Below, in pieces: positions 31,176 through 40,634 of a DNA stretch of 64,000 nucleotides; within the stretch, counting starts at the first letter, position 1; every line of letters begins with the position of its first letter. The notes under the pieces were generated by a model. It made no database searches and was not told the origin of the DNA. It saw only the letters and a program-made list of their open reading frames with translations. Origin of the DNA: Bacillota bacterium (GTDB lineage: Bacteria; Bacillota; UBA4882; UBA8346); assembly GCA_029776205.1 (NCBI GenBank), contig JAKOTQ010000096.1, positions 133,771-197,770 on the forward strand, read 5' to 3'. The translations under genes and the position numbers were made by a program.

Positions 31176-32477
31176 TCAAATATCTCTTTCATCAAAAACG
31201 CGTTTGGACTTCTTTTCGCTGCGCGGTAAAGTACCTAACGGCACCGTTTTTACATCGATTACAATCCCGATTTTCTTTTTGAAATTCTGTTCGATTCTAG
31301 CAGCGACTTCTTCCAAATCGTTTCCGGGCTCTGCCTCCGCCACGAGCAGCATATGATCCCTGGCATCCTGACGACTGAGACGAACCTGATATTCGCTGCT
31401 CGCCCCTGTTGTCTCTCGCAACACATCTTCAATCTGGCCCGGATAGATATTCACCCCTTTAATCTTGATCATATCGTCGCTCCGTCCCAAAATCCGATCG
31501 ATTCTTGGAAAAATACTGCCACAATGGCAACGGCCGGGAATAATCCGCGTCAAATCCCGGGTACGGTAGCGGATTAAAGGAGCACCTTCCTTCGTTAACG
31601 TGGTGATTACCAATTCACCCAGCTCTCCGTTGGGTAATACTTTGCCGGTGGATGGATCGATAATCTCAAAATAAAGATGATCGGTCCAATAATGGATCCC
31701 TTGATGACAATGACATTCAATTCCGATGCCGGGCCCGTAAATTTCCGTTAATCCATAAATATCATATGTTTCAATACCCAATTCCAATTCGATCCGGGCC
31801 CGCATTTTATCGCCCCAACGTTCCGAGCCCATGATCCCGATCCGTAGTTTAATCTTATCACGGAGCTGCCGTTTTTGAACTTCCTCAGCCAGTAACAAAG
31901 CATAGGACGAAGTGCTGCACAAAACGGTCGACCCCAGATCCACCATCATCTCCAATTGTTTATCCGTATTCCCCGGCCCCATCGGAATGGCCATCGCTCC
32001 CAACCGTTCCACTCCTGCCTGAAAACCGATGCCGGCAGTCCACAACCCATACCCCGGTGTAATTTGCACCCGGTCTTCCGGAGTCACCCCTGCCATCGCA
32101 TAGCACCGGGCAAACATCTCCGCCCAATTGGCTACATCATTACGTGTATAGGGGATAATCACCGGTTTTCCAGTTGTTCCGGACGAAGAATGGATCCGGA
32201 CGATATCCCGATTGGGTACAGCCTGCAAGCCCAATGGATACCCTTCCCGCAACTCCTCTTTCGTCGTAAACGGGAGCTGTTGAAAGTCTTCAAGAGTCTC
32301 TATACTCCGGCCTATAAAACCGGAAAATTTTCGCTGATAAAAGAGGCTGGATTCCATCACCCGCTGATAAACCCGATTTAAAGCAAATAACTGGTATTGT
32401 TCAGATTCCTCAACGGTCAATGACAGATCATGGGGTTCATTTGTATCATATTCCATGGGCCTGACTTTGTCTAACAT
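31176..32477 (-). CDS. paaK: Phenylacetate-CoA ligase family protein
   Basis: This AMP-forming aryl-acid CoA ligase has the ATP-binding motif SSSGTTGKP near residues 97-105, the YGLTEIYGPGIG adenylation motif and the C-terminal domain with GRSDDMIKIKGVNIYP. It forms phenylacetyl-CoA, or indoleacetyl-CoA, from the acid, ATP and CoA. It is 433 residues long with GGAGGTAG upstream. It lies 14 bases after iorB. With IorAB it could either activate arylacetates for reductive conversion to arylpyruvates or handle the aryl-CoA produced by oxidation; operon control argues for the former. Confidence 0.92.
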   Translation of the reverse strand: MLDKVRPMEYDTNEPHDLSLTVEESEQYQLFALNRVYQRVMESSLFYQRKFSGFIGRSIETLEDFQQLPFTTKEELREGYPLGLQAVPNRDIVRIHSSSGTTGKPVIIPYTRNDVANWAEMFARCYAMAGVTPEDRVQITPGYGLWTAGIGFQAGVERLGAMAIPMGPGNTDKQLEMMVDLGSTVLCSTSSYALLLAEEVQKRQLRDKIKLRIGIMGSERWGDKMRARIELELGIETYDIYGLTEIYGPGIGIECHCHQGIHYWTDHLYFEIIDPSTGKVLPNGELGELVITTLTKEGAPLIRYRTRDLTRIIPGRCHCGSIFPRIDRILGRSDDMIKIKGVNIYPGQIEDVLRETTGASSEYQVRLSRQDARDHMLLVAEAEPGNDLEEVAARIEQNFKKKIGIVIDVKTVPLGTLPRSEKKSKRVFDERDI

Positions 32478-32491
32478 CTCGTCTACCTCCT

Positions 32492-33079
32492 CTAAAGCTT
32501 TGCTCCCAGCTCAAATCCTCTCTCATTTATCTCTCTCGCCTTGGCAGGGACCAACTCCAACAACACCTTCAGTACTGCCGACCGAGAAAAAGGCAGTCTT
32601 CCGGTAGCGGCCAATGCCCCTAACATCACGGTATTTACCGCTTTAAAACTTCCAGCGGCTATCGCTGTATCGAATGCCCGTACCACCTTCAGTTGAAAGG
32701 GCGTATTCTTTAGATAATCCAAGATCGCCTCCGTTTGATAAGCCGACGTTCCCAAAGTGACTGTCACCGGACGGATCGGATAATCGTTCACCATTAAAAG
32801 ACCGCCCGGTTTTAACAATCCCAATGCCCGAACCGCTTCAGCCGGTTCAAACGCCAGAAGTACGTCGGCTTGGCCGGTACCAATCACCGGCCCAAAATCA
32901 TCCTTCCCGATCCGGACATGACTTTGTACCGTCCCTTCCCGTTGGGCCATCCCAATGGTTTCCGAAGTTTTTGCCGACAATCCCGCTTCCAAAGCTGCCT
33001 GAGCCAACACCCGTGAGGCCAATACCGTTCCCTGTCCGCCTACGCCGGCGATTACAATATCCATTGATGATGGATTCAT
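32492..33079 (-). CDS. iorB: Indolepyruvate:ferredoxin oxidoreductase, beta subunit
   Basis: IorB is the gamma-domain subunit of the enzyme that interconverts arylpyruvate, CoA and oxidised ferredoxin with arylacetyl-CoA, CO2 and reduced ferredoxin. The N-terminus DIVIAGVGGQGTVLASRVL is diagnostic. The start is ATG 33077-33079, overlapping the iorA stop (TGATG) with AAAGGAGG upstream. A longer frame lies inside iorA and is rejected. It gives 195 residues, the normal size. Confidence 0.94.
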   Translation of the reverse strand: MNPSSMDIVIAGVGGQGTVLASRVLAQAALEAGLSAKTSETIGMAQREGTVQSHVRIGKDDFGPVIGTGQADVLLAFEPAEAVRALGLLKPGGLLMVNDYPIRPVTVTLGTSAYQTEAILDYLKNTPFQLKVVRAFDTAIAAGSFKAVNTVMLGALAATGRLPFSRSAVLKVLLELVPAKAREINERGFELGAKL

Positions 33080-34869
33080 CAGCAATTCGCCTCCTTTATC
33101 GCTCCCACCGGGCAAACTTGAACACATAAACCGCACCCATAACAGGAAGGCCCTATCTCCGGTTTCTCTTCCTGATAAAACGCAGGGCATCCTAATTCTT
33201 TGATACACCGTTTACAATTGATACATCGGGATGCATCCACCCGGAAACGGCGGCTTGGTTTATACAAAGCAACACAAGGATAGCGCATCACAATGGCAGC
33301 AACTCCAGGATGTTCAAGGGATTTTCGCACTGCATTCTCCGCAGCTTGCAGATCCAATGGATTTACCTCTTCGACCCATTCAACACCGCAAGCCCGGATC
33401 AAAGCCACCACGTCCACAACCTGGGTCACCTCGCCGGAAGCCGTCCGCCCCATCCCGGGATGAGGTTGATGTCCGGTCATGGCAGTAGTACTGTTATCAA
33501 GCAAAACCAATTTAATCACATGTTTGTTGTAAACAGCATTGATCAATCCGGGAATCCCTGTATGAAAGAACGTTGAATCACCAATGAACGTAAATACCGG
33601 ACGCTCCGGTTCAATGCGCTGCAATCCCTGGCCGACAGTGATACCGGCTCCCATACACAAACAGGTGTCCACCATCGCCAATGGTTGGGCATTTCCCAGC
33701 GTATAACATCCGATGTCGCCTGTATAAATGGCATTCATCCCTTTGGTTGCCCGTTTCACCGCATAAAAGGACGCCCGATGGGGACAACCGGCACAAAGTA
33801 CCGGAGGCCTCAGCGGCAACTGGGGCGGAGCATCAAGTACCGCCGCCGCTGCATCCAACTTAACGCCGCACACCTTCATCAGTACATTTTTAACCAAATC
33901 CACGCTGTATTCACCGGCCCGGGGCAAATCACCGCTGATTTTTCCGTGAATTTTACCGGTAAACCCGATTCTTCCGGCGACAGCCAACACAGCCTCTTCA
34001 ATTACCGGGTCCAGCTCTTCGACCACAATAACCTGGTCCACCTGCTGCAAAAAGGCTTCGATCTTTGCCTGCGGCGCTGGATGAGGGTTGCCGATCTTCA
34101 GGATGGTAGGATGTAGCCCCAATGCCTGGGCGGCCTCAACTGCATAATAATAGGAGATGCCGCCTGCAATGATGCCTAGCCGGTCTCCCGGCGTCATCCG
34201 GTTCCAACGATTATCGGAAAACTCGACAGCCATCTTCTCCAATTGGTTCTCCAGCCAACGATGGCGTTCGTAAGACAACCGCGGAAAGATAACCCAACGG
34301 GGATCCTTGACGAAACCTTCCGTCGGAAGTGATTGAATCTCAGAAATTTCGACGCCAGCGGTAGCATGACACACTCGGGTGGTTGGCCGTAAAAACACCG
34401 GTATCCCGTACCGATGAGATAATTCAAAAGCATCCTTCGTCATCTCCAGCGCTTCTTCCGGCGATGCCGGATCGAACACCGGCAATTTGGCAAATTTGGC
34501 GAACGTACGAGTGTCCTGTTCTGTCTGGGAAGAATGAGGTCCCGGATCATCGGCTACCGCGACCACCAAGGCGCCTTTAACTCCAATGTAGGCCAAACTC
34601 ATCAACGGATCGCTAGCTACATTCAACCCGACTTGTTTCATAGCCACCAATGCCCTGGCACCGGCATACGCCGCACCGGCTGCCACCTCCATGGCTACTT
34701 TTTCATTGACCGACCATTCCACATAATAGGGAAATTCTCCGGACCATGCGGCTAACGTCCCGATAATTTCCGAAGAAGGTGTTCCGGGGTAGGCTGTAGC
34801 CAGATGAAGCCCCGCTTCGATCGCTCCTCTGGCAATTGCCTCATTTCCCATGAATAACTTTTTTCCCAT
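33079..34869 (-). CDS. iorA: Indolepyruvate:ferredoxin oxidoreductase, alpha subunit
   Basis: The 596-residue subunit carries the pyrimidine-binding domain (GNEAIARGAIEAG...TAYPGTPSSEI), the TPP-binding domain (GDIGCYTLG; GDSTFFHTG...DNSTTAMTG) and a C-terminal two-cluster ferredoxin domain (CINCKRC, then CYGCGLCVQVCP). The start ATG 34867-34869 is set by AGAGGTGAC. It is an oxygen-sensitive enzyme, which indicates anaerobic metabolism. It lies 32 bases after ecfT without an intervening terminator, tying it to the transporter genes. Confidence 0.96.
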   Translation of the reverse strand: MGKKLFMGNEAIARGAIEAGLHLATAYPGTPSSEIIGTLAAWSGEFPYYVEWSVNEKVAMEVAAGAAYAGARALVAMKQVGLNVASDPLMSLAYIGVKGALVVAVADDPGPHSSQTEQDTRTFAKFAKLPVFDPASPEEALEMTKDAFELSHRYGIPVFLRPTTRVCHATAGVEISEIQSLPTEGFVKDPRWVIFPRLSYERHRWLENQLEKMAVEFSDNRWNRMTPGDRLGIIAGGISYYYAVEAAQALGLHPTILKIGNPHPAPQAKIEAFLQQVDQVIVVEELDPVIEEAVLAVAGRIGFTGKIHGKISGDLPRAGEYSVDLVKNVLMKVCGVKLDAAAAVLDAPPQLPLRPPVLCAGCPHRASFYAVKRATKGMNAIYTGDIGCYTLGNAQPLAMVDTCLCMGAGITVGQGLQRIEPERPVFTFIGDSTFFHTGIPGLINAVYNKHVIKLVLLDNSTTAMTGHQPHPGMGRTASGEVTQVVDVVALIRACGVEWVEEVNPLDLQAAENAVRKSLEHPGVAAIVMRYPCVALYKPSRRFRVDASRCINCKRCIKELGCPAFYQEEKPEIGPSCYGCGLCVQVCPVGAIKEANC

Positions 34870-34901
34870 CGAAGTCACCTCTTGTTGCAACCTTCGTCTT
34901 A

Positions 34902-35690
34902 TTAATTCAAAATCCCCATCTGGTTCATTATAACGACGCTGAAAGCCAATAAAACTAAACCGATACTCACTAGCCAATCGGTACGGCTAAAATCATGGCG
35001 ATGCAAATAGGTCCGTTTCCCGATGCCAAAACCGCGGGTCTCCATCGATATGGCCATCTGTTCCGCCTTTTTCACCGACGTTATCATTAATGGAATAGCT
35101 AATGGACAAATGGAAAAAAACCGGGTCACAAAATTTCGACTGTCCAACCGATGAGCCCTGGAACATTGGGCTTGAATAATTTGCTCCATTTCATTCATAA
35201 ATGTCGGAATAAAACGAAGTGACGTAATAAACATAAAAGCATAGTTATAAGGTATTTTCAGTTTTTCAACCAAGACAACCACCATATCTTTGACCTGTGT
35301 GGTGGCTAACAATACCGGAAAACTAGAGGCTATTACCATCAGCCGAAATCCCATGGCCGTAGCGATAAATATCCCCCGGTCCGTTATTCGAAGCCCTGGA
35401 TTTCCCGGAATAAGCGTCAATAACGGTTGACCTTCCGATATAAAAAAAACCTGAAACACCCAAAAAAACAAGGCAAAAAAGAAGATCCCTTTAAAAACCG
35501 GAAGCATTTCCCGAAGCATTCGAGCAATCAGGGCAACCCCCACGACCGAGAAAAAAAGCCCAGTCAAAACCCACAAATCACCAAAAAGAAAGCTTAACCC
35601 CATTACCCATAGCGACCATAGTAATTTAGTTAATGGATTAAGACGATGAACTAATGAATCGCGATTTAAATAATTAGCTACAATGGACAT
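34902..35690 (-). CDS. ecfT: ECF transporter transmembrane subunit EcfT
   Basis: EcfT is the membrane coupling subunit of energy-coupling-factor vitamin and amino-acid importers. It has about five or six hydrophobic helices and the cytoplasmic coupling segments with QCSRAHRLD and METRGFG that contact the ATPases. The protein has 262 residues. It overlaps the end of the upstream ATPase gene by 17 bases. Together with two ATPases and a substrate component it forms a dedicated ECF transporter. Confidence 0.93.
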   Translation of the reverse strand: MSIVANYLNRDSLVHRLNPLTKLLWSLWVMGLSFLFGDLWVLTGLFFSVVGVALIARMLREMLPVFKGIFFFALFFWVFQVFFISEGQPLLTLIPGNPGLRITDRGIFIATAMGFRLMVIASSFPVLLATTQVKDMVVVLVEKLKIPYNYAFMFITSLRFIPTFMNEMEQIIQAQCSRAHRLDSRNFVTRFFSICPLAIPLMITSVKKAEQMAISMETRGFGIGKRTYLHRHDFSRTDWLVSIGLVLLAFSVVIMNQMGILN

Positions 35691-36510
35691 ATTCTTCCCC
35701 TCCGCTGTCGGTAATGGCCTTATAAAATTCCTCTACAGAAAGGGGCATCCCGAATTCCTCCTGATAACGGTCAAACCGTTGCACCAAGCAAGGAATTTGC
35801 GAAGGGAAAAGATTGGTACGGCGCAACACATCCGGTTGGTAAAATACCCGGCGACATGTGTCATCCATCAAAATACGTCCCTGGCTTAAAACGATCACTC
35901 GCTCGGCATACCGGGCTACTAACTCCATATCATGGGTAACAAAAATAATGGTATGCCCCTGCCGATGTAAAGCCTTAACCATCTCCATAATTTCAATTCC
36001 TTCCCGATAATCCTGCCCGGTTGTCGGTTCATCCAATACCATCACTTGCGGCCGCATGGAAAGCAATGAAGCAAAAGCCACCCGTTGGCGCTGCCCCTTA
36101 CTTAAAAAAAGCGGATTATCATTCAAATAGGGTTCCAACCCTACCTGCACGGCGGCCTCCCGCACCCTTTTGTCAATCTCTTCCCGGGAACATCCAAGAT
36201 TAGCCGGACCGAACCCTATCTCCTGAGCAACTGTAGGCAAGAAAATTTGATGATCTGGATTTTGAAACAAAAAACCAACTTTTTGCGCCAATAGACCTGT
36301 GGTTGACTTCCGGGTATCCATTCCGTCAATCCGGACCATTCCGCGGGTCGGTTTTAATAGTCCGTTAAACTGTTTTAACAAGGTGGTTTTTCCAGCCCCG
36401 TTTTGGCCGATGAGTGCGACAAATTCACCGGACTTTATCTCGAAGCTCAGGTTTTCCAAAACCGGCAAACCATTCGGGTATGCAAAGGTCAACTCCTCAA
36501 CCTGGATCAT
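35674..36510 (-). CDS. ECF transporter ATP-binding subunit EcfA (second)
   Basis: This is an ABC ATPase with Walker A GQNGAGKTTLL, a Q-loop FQNPDHQIF, signature SKGQRQRVA and Walker B VMVLDEPT. The FQNPDHQ motif is typical of ECF ATPases. The signature begins LSKGQ rather than LSGGQ. The start ATG 36508-36510 overlaps the previous stop as ATGA and has GGAGGG upstream; a longer frame within the previous gene is rejected. It is expected to pair with the other ATPase as a heterodimer. Confidence 0.93.
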   Translation of the reverse strand: MIQVEELTFAYPNGLPVLENLSFEIKSGEFVALIGQNGAGKTTLLKQFNGLLKPTRGMVRIDGMDTRKSTTGLLAQKVGFLFQNPDHQIFLPTVAQEIGFGPANLGCSREEIDKRVREAAVQVGLEPYLNDNPLFLSKGQRQRVAFASLLSMRPQVMVLDEPTTGQDYREGIEIMEMVKALHRQGHTIIFVTHDMELVARYAERVIVLSQGRILMDDTCRRVFYQPDVLRRTNLFPSQIPCLVQRFDRYQEEFGMPLSVEEFYKAITDSGGEEYVHCS

Positions 36511-37364
36511 CCTTTCCCTCCCCTGCATTTCAACAATGCCCAATAGGCCTCATCGACTGTCAACGGCAACTCCCCAGAATAATAGCCGGCCGCCTTTAAA
36601 CGATAGACCAACTCACTAACCGGAGGAATTTGCAAACCCACACCGGTTAATAACTCCGGCTGATTGATGATTTGTCGGGGCGGTTGATCTGCAACCATCC
36701 TTCCTTCGTTCATCACCCATAAACGTTCAATATATTCCAATAAAATATTAATCTTTTGCTCAACCACGATAATGGTTAAACCGTATTCCTGATTGAGCTG
36801 TTTGAGTACTTCGAACACTTCCTTCGTCCCTAACGGATCAAGCTCCGAGGTGGGTTCATCCAGTACTAATATTTTGGGGCGGAGGGCAACAGCTGCTGCA
36901 ATCGCAACCCGCTGTTTCTGCCCTCCGGACAATTCAACGGTAGATCGATACCGTAAACCTTCGATTCCGATGCGTTGCAACGCATCGGTAATCCGGGCCT
37001 CAATCATCTCGGGCTCCATCCCGAAGTTTTCCAATCCAAACGCTATTTCATCTTCGACGGTTGACGCCACTATCTGGGCTTCCGGATCTTGAAAGACACT
37101 CCCTACTTTTCGTGAGATTTCCGTACAATGGGTGTCAACGGTATCGAGGCCATCGATCCATACTCTGCCTTGATATTCTCCTCGCTGAAAATGGGGGATA
37201 ATCCCGTTAAGGCAAAGGACCAGCGTGGATTTGCCGGCACCAGCCGGGCCGGTAATCCCGATAAATTCACCGGGATTCACCGTCACATTAATCCCTGATA
37301 AAGCCGGCCGTTCGGAACCGGCATAGGTGAAACTGAGCTGTTCAATGGAAATCACCGGTTTCAT
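36507..37364 (-). CDS. ECF transporter ATP-binding subunit EcfA (first)
   Basis: This ABC ATPase has Walker A GPAGAGKSTLV, Q-loop FQDPEAQIV, signature LSGGQKQRVA and Walker B ILVLDEPTSELDP. It has about 285 residues. The second of two adjacent ATG codons is preferred because AGGAG lies 6 nt before it. The gene is 9 bases after the substrate-component gene and overlaps the next ATPase by 4 bases. The EcfA-EcfA' pair powers uptake. Confidence 0.93.
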   Translation of the reverse strand: MKPVISIEQLSFTYAGSERPALSGINVTVNPGEFIGITGPAGAGKSTLVLCLNGIIPHFQRGEYQGRVWIDGLDTVDTHCTEISRKVGSVFQDPEAQIVASTVEDEIAFGLENFGMEPEMIEARITDALQRIGIEGLRYRSTVELSGGQKQRVAIAAAVALRPKILVLDEPTSELDPLGTKEVFEVLKQLNQEYGLTIIVVEQKINILLEYIERLWVMNEGRMVADQPPRQIINQPELLTGVGLQIPPVSELVYRLKAAGYYSGELPLTVDEAYWALLKCRGGKG

Positions 37365-37373
37365 CATCTTCTC

Positions 37374-37923
37374 CTAACGCTGCCGCCCCAAAGTCGATTT
37401 TAACGGGAAATACAATACACTGACCAAAATAGAATTAGCCAGGGCTGTGACTAAGACCACACTCATCAATGCCACAAAAGCCGGAGCATTTTTGCCACCG
37501 AACATTAACAACGTAAGCATCATTCCAACATAAGTAAATCCACTGGCTGCCGTCCCAAGGAATGTAATCACAAAAGGCCGGATATATCCAAGCACTCCAT
37601 CCTTTAATTTAATTGAAGATAACAACCCGACGACAATAGCCCCCCACCGGTTCACTGATAAAATTCAAAAATGGAATCACCGATTTTGTCGTAACCATAC
37701 ATAGAGCAGCCGATACCAAACCAATTCCGATAACCTCAGAAAATTTGGGCCGTAATAACAAAATAGCCAAACAATACATTCCAATGATAAAATTCGGCGT
37801 AATCCCTGCAAACGGGGGAGTAAACATGCGTAATACCGCCCCTACTGCCAACAGCACAGCAACCACTGCAACATCTACAGCCTGTAACCCTTTTCGTTCC
37901 ATCAATCTCGTTTCAACACTCAT
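37374..37923 (-). pseudogene. trpP: TrpP-like tryptophan ECF substrate component, interrupted by a one-base frameshift
   Basis: Two overlapping frames, 37609-37923 and 37374-37655, encode the two halves of one membrane protein. Removing a single G from the run of six (37640-37645 as C on the plus strand) joins them as ...NFISEPVG-AIVVGLLSSIK... into about 182 residues with five or six helices, close to TrpP (about 172 in Bacillus). The FTPPFAGITPNF segment resembles the FIPGFGGMKPDF of TrpP as I recall it. It begins an operon with matching ECF ATPases and EcfT. The start ATG has GGGAGG at 8 nt. The frameshift may be genuine loss, slippage-based phase variation or a homopolymer sequencing error. 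The tryptophan assignment is likely but not proven. Confidence 0.75.
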
Positions 37924-37985: not shown

Positions 37986-38032
37986 AAAATAAAAAGCCGG
38001 ACACCAGTGTCCGGCTTAACAATTCGTTAGCC
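37986..38032 (-). terminator. Leader attenuator: antiterminator and terminator
   Basis: The terminator stem AAGCCGGACA/TGTCCGGCTT (37994-38017) is followed by TTTATTTT on the minus strand, 70 bases before trpP. An alternative helix, GGCTAAC with GTTAAGCC (38013-38032, one bulged A), uses the left arm AAGCC of the terminator, so the two are mutually exclusive. The 5' side of the antiterminator abuts the last GAG triplet of the TRAP-like site. This is the classical layout of trp attenuation in Bacillus. Confidence 0.75.
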
Positions 38033-38036
38033 TTCA

Positions 38037-38089
38037 CTCGTCTCTTCTCAACCCAATCTCTTCTATTCCAAACAAACTCTACTCAACTA
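38037..38089 (-). promoter_or_regulatory. TRAP-type binding site: eleven triplet positions in a leader RNA
   Basis: On the minus strand eleven triplet positions follow one another at spacings of 5,5,5,4,5,5,5,6,5,5 nt. Eight are GAG or UAG; the other three read UGU, UGG and UGG. TRAP (MtrB) binds exactly eleven (G/U)AG triplets separated by 2-3 nt. The site ends four bases before the antiterminator. No mtrB gene is in the window, so TRAP itself is inferred. Confidence 0.7.
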
Positions 38090-38125
38090 TATCTTATATA
38101 TAATATACTATGCTGATTATTGATG

Positions 38126-38154
38126 AATATAACAAAAATTGTGCCAAAAGTCAA
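38126..38154 (-). promoter_or_regulatory. Sigma-A promoter of the trpP-ecf-ior-paaK operon
   Basis: The -35 box TTGACT (38149-38154) and -10 box TATATT (38126-38131) have a 17-base spacer. Transcription would begin near 38119, about 30 bases before the TRAP-type site, giving a leader of roughly 195 nt. Confidence 0.85.
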
Positions 38155-38247: not shown

Positions 38248-39750
38248 ATGATTAAGGGTTTTGTTAGCCGCCGAACCACCCAACGCGTTCCATATGAAGC
38301 CGAAATTGGGATTCAGTTTACTTGCGGCGATAATACAGCTATCACCGCCAACACTACCAATCTCAGTCCTGAAGGCGTCCGTTTTTTTGTGCCCAAAGGC
38401 CATATTAAACTGGCTCCGGAGGAAATTATCGAATTATCCTTCAATTTGCCAAATAAAGAAGCATTCACGGTTCAAGGGGAAATTTGCTACTTTTCACAGG
38501 CCATGGACAATAACGAAAAACCCGTTGTCTATTACGGTGTTCGTTTTATCAATCTTACTGCTGAAATATCCGAAGCTATCCGTGAATTTTGTCAAATGCA
38601 ACTCACGGACGAAACCGACGAACCTGAAATGCAACAAAATACCGATACGTCTTCTATATTGGTCAATGATGTTTTTGACCCGGAAACGATGGATTCGTCT
38701 GAATTTGATATTCCCCAAGATATCCAAAAGGCATTTCAAGGAGAGCCTGCAACTACAGCGAAACCGCAACCCGCGGCCTTTTCTGCAGATATTCCAGTTG
38801 CGTCTCAGCCAGATCTCTCTGATAATCTGTTAACGTCAAAAAATGAAACCAGTTATCGCTCTTTAAGCCAAGAAATGATTGATCAAATCATCCGTTCCAT
38901 GACTTCGTCCCGGGCATCGGCAGCACCCGCATCCGAAGTTGTCACAAGCGAAACGGATTCCAAAAATGAAGCTATACCAAACCAGCATACAAAAGAAACT
39001 CCTGAAATTCATACTTCTTCGGCTGTAGAACAAAAGGAATCCCAAACGGAAAAGCAACATAATCTCATTGAACAATTCCGCAAAATCGCTGAATCGCTTA
39101 ATATCAAAATCGATGAAGAGCTTTTTGAAAAAATCTCCATTCCTGATAACAAACCCAATGAAACGCTACCATCCTCTCAACCTGAGCCGGTAAGCCATAC
39201 CGAAGCAGGACATGGTTTAACTGCCAGCAGTTTCAACCCGGATCATTCATTCGAAAGCACGGATAATTTCGATGTTTCCCATCACCAGGAAACACCGGGA
39301 AGCGGCCAAATGAATATCGATAATTTATTATTTTCCAATTCCAGTCTCTTAGATATTCTATATGGAAACGAAGGGGACACCGCAACACCATCAGCCCCTC
39401 CAGTACAGCCAGAGTCCGCCAAAACCATTATACCGTCAAATCCTGAGCCGAAGGTCTCTGGGACCGATAGCAACCACCCGGGCCAAAAGAATGAACCAGA
39501 ATCAATTCTCGCCAAACCCGTATCCGAGTTTATTCAATCAAAAGTTTCACCGGAACCGGAAACACCCCATTCCAATCACCAAATTCCGGTCAGCGGATTA
39601 GGACCACTAAATACTCAAGATGAAAAAACACAGGGAACAGCGGGTAACGATCTTTTTAACATCAATTCCATTCCGAAAAAAGCCTCCGGTGCCCCGATGG
39701 ATCAACGGATGATCGACCAAATCGTACAGGCTATGCTGAAAAAGAAATAA
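38248..39750 (+). CDS. PilZ-domain protein with a long disordered tail
   Basis: The N-terminal ~115 residues form a PilZ c-di-GMP receptor domain with the RxxxR motif (RTTQR, 9-13) and the D/NxSxxG motif (NLSPEG, 38-43). The remaining ~380 residues are rich in Pro, Ser, Glu and Gln and look disordered. Within them the peptide MIDQIIRSM (210-218) recurs as MIDQIVQAM at 488-496, next to the C-terminus. A -10 box TATAAT at 38215-38220 and a GGGGG ribosome site precede the ATG. It is divergent from the trpP operon and followed by a second PilZ gene. The repeated peptide may be a docking motif; that is inference. Confidence 0.85.
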   Translation: MIKGFVSRRTTQRVPYEAEIGIQFTCGDNTAITANTTNLSPEGVRFFVPKGHIKLAPEEIIELSFNLPNKEAFTVQGEICYFSQAMDNNEKPVVYYGVRFINLTAEISEAIREFCQMQLTDETDEPEMQQNTDTSSILVNDVFDPETMDSSEFDIPQDIQKAFQGEPATTAKPQPAAFSADIPVASQPDLSDNLLTSKNETSYRSLSQEMIDQIIRSMTSSRASAAPASEVVTSETDSKNEAIPNQHTKETPEIHTSSAVEQKESQTEKQHNLIEQFRKIAESLNIKIDEELFEKISIPDNKPNETLPSSQPEPVSHTEAGHGLTASSFNPDHSFESTDNFDVSHHQETPGSGQMNIDNLLFSNSSLLDILYGNEGDTATPSAPPVQPESAKTIIPSNPEPKVSGTDSNHPGQKNEPESILAKPVSEFIQSKVSPEPETPHSNHQIPVSGLGPLNTQDEKTQGTAGNDLFNINSIPKKASGAPMDQRMIDQIVQAMLKKK

Positions 39751-39753
39751 TAC

Positions 39754-39785
39754 ATAAAACCCAACTATTTAAGGTTGGGTTTTAT
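39754..39785 (+). terminator. Terminator of the first PilZ gene
   Basis: A perfect 12-bp stem (ATAAAACCCAAC and its complement) with an 8-nt loop and T-rich right arm lies three bases after the stop codon. The sequence also allows minus-strand use. Confidence 0.85.
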
Positions 39786-39890
39786 CATTTTAAAACATCA
39801 TGAAGTTTATCTGGAGAAATCCGACCTTCCTGCCGATATTTGCAATATAAAGTCATTACTTATCGTTTGAAATTGATGACGGAGGCAAAA

Positions 39891-40634
39891 ATGATTAAAG
39901 GCATTATTGAACGGCGCACTGCCGACCGTATTCCATTTGAAACAGCACTTCAAATTAAATTAACCTCACCGGGATCTCCGGAAGACTTGAAAGCTTTTTC
40001 CGTGGATATCAGTGCCGGTGGAATGAAATTTGCCACAGCTGCCGATTTACCTTTAATCCCTGTCGGAGAAGAGCTGGAATTCGATTTCAACTTACCTAAT
40101 TACGGGAAAGTTACCCTTACCGGCAAAGTAACCTATCGTTCCGCCGGCTCCTTCCAAGACAACCTGGTATATTATGGCGTCAAATTTCTGAAGATGGATC
40201 ATATCACCTGGAAAGCTGTTATTGATTACTGTTATGGTCCCGAACAAGCCCAGGCCGAAGAAGAGTTGATCATGAATCTTCCGGATGAAGCGCCCCAAAA
40301 ACTCACAGTCTCCAACCAAACAGTTGCTTTTGAACCGAAAAAGTTAATAACCATCCTCCATTATCAGGACGGAACCGAAGCACTGGCCAATTTGGAAGAT
40401 ATCAGTTATGGCGGAGCACGGGTTAACGTATACCAGCCATTGCCCGTTAACACGGCGGTTACGATCACCATCCGCTACGCCGACCTTCAATTGGTATTAA
40501 ACAGCATCTGCGTATGGAGCACTTCGGAACCGAACGGTACCTGGGTCGGAGGCCTGTTCTTCCAATCTTTAAACGATCAGGAATTCTCCGAATTGACCAA
40601 ACTGATTCATACTATTTCGCAAAATAAAACATAA
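39891..40634 (+). CDS. Tandem PilZ-domain protein
   Basis: The first PilZ domain has RTADR (residues 9-13) and the DISAGG motif, so it should bind c-di-GMP. A second PilZ-like domain from about residue 150 has DISYGGA but no preceding RxxxR. It may therefore be a non-binding PilZ. The start is ATG 39891, set by GGAGGC six bases upstream, giving 247 residues. The first 20 residues closely resemble those of the preceding PilZ gene (MIKG..xRRT..R.P.E), pointing to local duplication. A plus-strand terminator lies 165 bases downstream. Confidence 0.88.
   Translation: MIKGIIERRTADRIPFETALQIKLTSPGSPEDLKAFSVDISAGGMKFATAADLPLIPVGEELEFDFNLPNYGKVTLTGKVTYRSAGSFQDNLVYYGVKFLKMDHITWKAVIDYCYGPEQAQAEEELIMNLPDEAPQKLTVSNQTVAFEPKKLITILHYQDGTEALANLEDISYGGARVNVYQPLPVNTAVTITIRYADLQLVLNSICVWSTSEPNGTWVGGLFFQSLNDQEFSELTKLIHTISQNKT

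Follow-up and report, generated by a model that had tools for sequence, protein, structure and literature searches.

Upstream of an ECF transporter operon, within a stretch of 64,000 nucleotides from a Bacillota contig (hereafter the window), lies a short leader that raises the question of whether a tryptophan switch can govern a transport operon in this organism. TRAP, the ring-shaped, tryptophan-sensing protein whose mechanism is textbook material, is to our knowledge known almost only from Bacillus. Our answer is that the leader lets TRAP attenuate transcription of an operon for tryptophan uptake, a reading to which we give a probability of about 0.92. It is carried by the regulator gene in the same genome, the array and its rarity, helices that are mutually exclusive by folding, conservation, and a link with mtrB. 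Each of the features that define attenuators of this type and could be examined by computation was found, and we classify the leader accordingly. Counting against this reading are three of the eleven leader positions, which are not (G/U)AG, and a trpP gene that is frameshifted in the assembly.

Leader elements and predicted switch

The coordinates of all features are given in Table 1. The first-pass annotation, made from the letters of the window, had described a consensus sigma-A promoter, eleven triplet positions of which eight are exact (G/U)AG, and an antiterminator sharing AAGCC with a strong terminator; all were recovered. The promoter is also present in the congener L013. Leader triplet positions lie 4-6 nt apart, the exact ones starting at 38084, 38079, 38060, 38049, 38044 and 38039, as well as at 38089 and 38065, where the first base is U; the degenerate ones are UUG/UGG-like. 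TRAP targets typically carry some 11 (G/U)AG triplets with 2-3 nt between neighbours. At the RNA level the terminator reads AAGCCGGACA-CUGG-UGUCCGGCUU. Its stem comprises 10 pairs (6 of them G-C), is followed by a good T tract and is conserved in the family.

Table 1. Features of the trpP operon and its leader, in the order of transcription (positions in the window)
Feature	Position	Strand	Evidence or remark
Sigma-A-type promoter TTGACT-N17-TATATT	38154-38126	minus	10/12 consensus matches
Leader TRAP-type array, predicted	38089-38037	minus	8/11 positions exact (G/U)AG, exactly 53 nt
Predicted antiterminator, GGCUAAC/GUUAAGCC + AGUG/CACU	38038-38006	minus	folding
Intrinsic terminator AAGCCGGACACTGGTGTCCGGCTT, then T tract	38017-37994	minus	-16.1 kcal/mol
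Second GAG array	37956-37907	minus	7/11; covers the trpP Shine-Dalgarno and start codon (37923)
trpP-like ECF S component, N-terminal part	37609..37923	minus	PF17099 TrpP 32.3 bits, cut-off 27.2
trpP-like S component, C-terminal part, other frame	37374..37655	minus	aligns to profile positions 93-183
ecfA1, ECF ATPase 1	36507..37367	minus	TIGR04520 259.5 bits (below equivalog cut-off); PF00005 above cut-off
ecfA2, ECF ATPase 2	35674..36543	minus	TIGR04521 261.5 bits (below equivalog cut-off); PF00005 above cut-off
ECF T component, CbiQ family	34902..35690	minus	PF02361 110.4 bits
iorA, indolepyruvate:ferredoxin oxidoreductase alpha	33079..34977	minus	TIGR03336 782 bits, cut-off 651
iorB, indolepyruvate:ferredoxin oxidoreductase beta	32492..33208	minus	PF01558 above cut-off
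Third GAG array	32537-32471	minus	7/11; covers the PaaK-like gene start and the bases before it
PaaK-like aryl-CoA ligase	31176..32477	minus	PF14535 and PF00501 above cut-off; TIGR02155 418.6 bits (below cut-off)

Folding predicted that the antiterminator overlaps both the last leader triplet and the 5' arm of the terminator, so that it engages the array and excludes the terminator. In nascent RNA, before the terminator 3' arm exists, its computed energy was -12.0 kcal/mol; it weakened to -6.6 when the array was masked as if bound and to -2.9 when the next AAG triplet was covered too. Given this weakening and the energy of the terminator, TRAP binding would be predicted to tip the balance towards termination. 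The folding z-score of the leader segment was only -2.0, and the structure therefore rests on the competing helices and on conservation, not on energy alone.

TRAP binding, tryptophan dependence, termination and a translational step would combine as follows. When tryptophan is scarce, TRAP would be empty and the nascent leader would fold the antiterminator, which occupies the terminator 5' arm; RNA polymerase would then read into trpP-ecfA1-ecfA2-ecfT-iorA-iorB-(paaK-like), the gene order on the minus strand. When tryptophan is plentiful, tryptophan-loaded TRAP would wrap the 11-position array and remove the last triplet and its flank from the antiterminator, so that the terminator would form and transcription stop. 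On read-through transcripts, further TRAP rings may occupy the arrays where ribosomes would bind to translate trpP and paaK-like, and so block translation.

Rarity of the arrays and additional sites at gene starts

The background of the arrays was assessed on the 346-kb contig to which the window belongs and by whole-genome pattern searches. On both strands of the contig, no site other than the leader reached 8 of 11 triplets, and the only two sites with 7 (at 37907 and 32487) fall in the same operon and on the same strand, one at the ribosome-binding region of trpP, the other at that of the PaaK-like gene. Four Markov-3 shuffles of the contig produced no site with at least 8 triplets and a single one with 7. 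Likewise, an independent chain score ranked the leader and the two start arrays as the top three on the contig (scores 12-13); as the reversed-sequence control reached 11.5, more weight falls on the clustering of the arrays within a single operon. A whole-genome search for a regular 5-nt spacing recovered the trp operon arrays and missed the trpP-operon leader because of its irregular spacing; its total counts were no higher than those of the reversed-pattern control. The one other match (C58:5083) was rejected as a TRAP target, no recognisable gene start being present there.

Both start-site arrays come in addition to the single leader array of the first-pass annotation. At the trpP start, 7/11 triplets were counted in the window as well as in L013, whereas the remaining family members have 5-6; at the ligase start, the counts were 7/11 in the window and in L013, and 6/11 in L082. 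The trpP start array partly coincides with the codons of a conserved N-terminus, MSVETR, and 5/11 triplets were still present there on a Geobacter-labelled contig devoid of mtrB, for which reason only start-array scores of at least 6 were counted as support. From the position of these arrays, tryptophan-loaded TRAP probably represses translation of trpP and the ligase. In B. subtilis, TRAP translationally represses trpE, trpD, trpG, trpP and ycbK (PMC13170310).

The Geobacter-labelled contig (L012, 5900-6300) encodes a TrpP 76% identical to that of the window, with residual GAG codons at the trpP start and neither mtrB nor a leader array; it may reflect a recent transfer or a mis-binned contig.

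The regulator and the trp operon

A search of the genome for mtrB, proposed in the first-pass annotation as a check, identified the gene (E 3.6e-37; PF02081 127.8 bits, cut-off 21.3). The encoded protein is identical to B. stearothermophilus TRAP, of which structures were solved, at 43 of 66 residues. Conserved positions (B. subtilis numbering) are T52 and the residues which we take to contact RNA (K37, K56, R58) and tryptophan (T25, T30, Q47, T49, S53). In the genome's own contig C37 (L022, 3049-5380), mtrB is directly followed by a leader with a 10/11 GAG array, a terminator and trpE-trpG-trpD. Further GAG arrays were observed at the trpE and trpD starts, and a weaker one (6/11) at that of trpB (C82; L071, 1770-1815). 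In family members, mtrB likewise precedes a GAG-rich leader and trpE. Profile searches for anti-TRAP gave no match in this genome or its family and only sub-threshold matches elsewhere in the class; in a control, the model also retrieved proteins from TRAP-less genomes.

In a sample of the phylum, mtrB occurred in 200 of 399 genomes and 142 of 267 genera, a distribution far wider than one would expect for TRAP from a literature centred on Bacillus. One genome (G017) carries two mtrB genes.

Orthologous leaders and replacement by T-boxes

Thirty-nine related transporter operons were compared, 30 from mtrB-positive and 9 from mtrB-negative genomes. Arrays were called at a threshold of 14 in a chain score whose design postdates inspection of the first leaders. 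Array and regulator went together: arrays reached the threshold in 27 of the 30 mtrB-positive cases and in none of the 9 others (Fisher p ~1e-6, kinship ignored). Among other upstream regions, 0 of 489 scored above 9. The three mtrB-positive leaders below 14 all have gapped arrays, namely that of the window (12), which is among the weakest of the set, G003 (13) and G004 (8.5).

In L013-L018, which include the cultured Pseudobacteroides cellulosolvens (L017), a GAG array and then a terminator lie upstream of trpP, and across the sample of 399 genomes GAG arrays precede trpP in mtrB-positive genomes having the trpP operon. Judged by sequence, some twelve bacterial families share this arrangement. 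The comparison of orthologous leaders suggested by the first-pass annotation thus turned out in its favour, triplets and terminator being conserved in the genus, the family and some dozen other families and tracking mtrB; together with the mtrB gene itself, this supports its proposal of TRAP control. Two array-bearing genomes in which mtrB was not found, L013 and L016, are represented by assemblies only ~85% and ~72% complete and were excluded from the mtrB/array counts. Automatic folding picked an implausible terminator or array boundary in a few relatives (L135, L014), so that per-genome folds are only illustrative, and in relatives the terminator arm did not in every case become less paired on average once the array was masked.

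The four closest mtrB-negative Bacillota operons (L019, L136, L158 and L160) are preceded by T-box leaders, two of them above the Rfam gathering score and two below it with E<1e-14. Each displays UGG, the tryptophan codon, at the expected position, where it presumably acts as specifier. By family in the phylum sample, arrays were recorded in 11 families and T-boxes in 2. The remaining five mtrB-negative operons (the Geobacter-labelled and Spirochaetales contigs and three more distant S components) displayed neither array nor T-box. This exchange of TRAP and T-box at one operon offers a clean case of regulatory replacement. One genome (G168) harbours two trpP-ECF operons (L143 and L146), each with a TRAP-type leader.

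Other readings of the control

Could the array be a decaying relic, inherited from a TRAP-controlled ancestor and of no consequence now that the transporter is broken? The trpP gene is indeed split into two frames near 37635 with a stop inside, three triplets are degenerate and the array scores below those of most relatives. Yet the break consists of one extra homopolymer base relative to relatives, a common assembly error in draft assemblies such as this one, and the flanking frames are intact and conserved. Promoter, leader, terminator and both start-site arrays have moreover been retained, and trpP is intact in L013, which makes decay very unlikely. The break itself may be an assembly error or a real inactivation.

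Still less probable is that TRAP acts only on translation through the start-site arrays, the leader terminator serving as a constitutive brake. Such arrays are present in this genome, and B. subtilis trpP was described as TRAP-controlled at the level of translation (PMC13170310, PMC11255114); however, the leader array stands directly before a terminator in nearly all mtrB-positive relatives, array and terminator also occur where start-site arrays are absent (Pseudobacteroides L017, and L135), and the antiterminator overlaps the array end. That the leader is read by some other purine-motif RNA-binding protein or RNA element (T-box, riboswitch) is the least probable of these readings. GAG-rich RNA could bind other proteins, but an Rfam scan of the window gave no match to known RNA families, including T-box RF00230, and above-threshold arrays were confined to mtrB genomes, with T-boxes instead in four mtrB-less ones. 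TRAP-controlled attenuation is the reading that we retain.

Relation to known systems

That TRAP attenuates trpEDCFBA and controls trpP at translation is already known (PMC3913778, PMC11255114, PMC13170310). The leader shares with the B. subtilis trpEDCFBA attenuator an 11-position (G/U)AG array, an overlapping antiterminator and terminator, and an mtrB-encoded TRAP (PMC3913778, PMC13170310). It differs in the operon that it precedes and in its terminator, of -16.1 kcal/mol, whereas intrinsic termination at the B. subtilis attenuator is described as weak (PMC3913778). Such a strong terminator could serve as a system to separate TRAP's own role from intrinsic termination, a matter debated for the weak B. 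subtilis attenuator. With B. subtilis trpP (yhaG), the operon has in common the regulator, the TrpP family PF17099 and an array at the ribosome-binding region. The control described there is translational, while here a leader attenuator is present in addition and trpP heads an ECF module together with iorAB and a PaaK-like gene. The T-box leaders of the four relatives mentioned above act on the same operon core, respond to a tryptophan-supply signal and are likewise leader-based, but in these tRNA-Trp charging is read by RNA, not TRAP.

In the literature searched, which lay outside most subscription journals and the main comparative papers on trp regulation, we found no ECF-trpP or iorAB operon described as being under TRAP. 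Apparently new are the transcription attenuation of an ECF-trpP operon, its extension to iorAB and a PaaK-like ligase, the presence of three arrays in one operon and the TRAP/T-box swap. The list of TRAP targets is likely to grow by an ECF tryptophan transporter and an indolepyruvate oxidoreductase.

Operon content and physiological aim

The first-pass annotation had noted transport and 2-oxoacid oxidoreductase genes in place of trp genes and regarded the operon as an odd TRAP target. ECF transport was confirmed, the S component adjoining two ECF ATPases and CbiQ, and the oxidoreductase genes match IorA and IorB models best. The oddity disappears, since a TrpP-type S component and IorAB indicate that the operon concerns tryptophan, and mtrB-less relatives have a tryptophan T-box at the corresponding operon. 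For iorB, the best NCBIfam matches are all IorB models, each below its own cut-off. By sequence similarity, all genes of the operon are plausible tryptophan-supply genes.

Very probably the operon imports tryptophan and is turned off by the TRAP switch, and probably it recycles tryptophan breakdown products. The predicted repression by tryptophan points to a supply role, in which ligase and IorAB would make indolepyruvate from indole-acetate and not degrade tryptophan; we thus infer that the aim is tryptophan import combined with indole-acetate salvage, through the ligase and IorAB run towards indolepyruvate. The opposite direction, in which both enzymes would serve the breakdown of tryptophan or aryl amino acids, would touch only the aim and leave TRAP control unaffected. 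A catabolic role of IorAB in amino acid fermentation has been described (see the discussion in PMC5817080), and PaaK-like ligases fit either direction. Yet repression by tryptophan through TRAP and, in relatives, T-box induction by uncharged tRNA-Trp both fit supply, and Methanococcus maripaludis is known to build aromatic amino acids from aryl acids, according to the passage of PMC4162585 that cites it. We consider breakdown rather unlikely, and tryptophan-repressed control of iorAB argues for salvage. The M. maripaludis IorAB was itself proposed, in the same passage, to form aryl-pyruvates from aryl-acetates; here the enzyme is bacterial and accompanied by its own tryptophan transporter and ligase, and would run in that direction. 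In Pseudobacteroides, the ior-ligase genes precede the TRAP leader instead of following it and lack an array, so that co-control is common, not universal.

A broader view, to which we give somewhat less than even chances, is that TRAP directs a widespread tryptophan-supply regulon outside Bacillus. This would comprise synthesis, ECF uptake and indole-acetate salvage by reductive IorAB and ligase, with three sites in one operon and a T-box swap where mtrB is absent.

Upstream of the operon (38248-40634, plus strand), two divergently oriented genes encode products with similar N-termini that, by eye, resemble PilZ-type domains.
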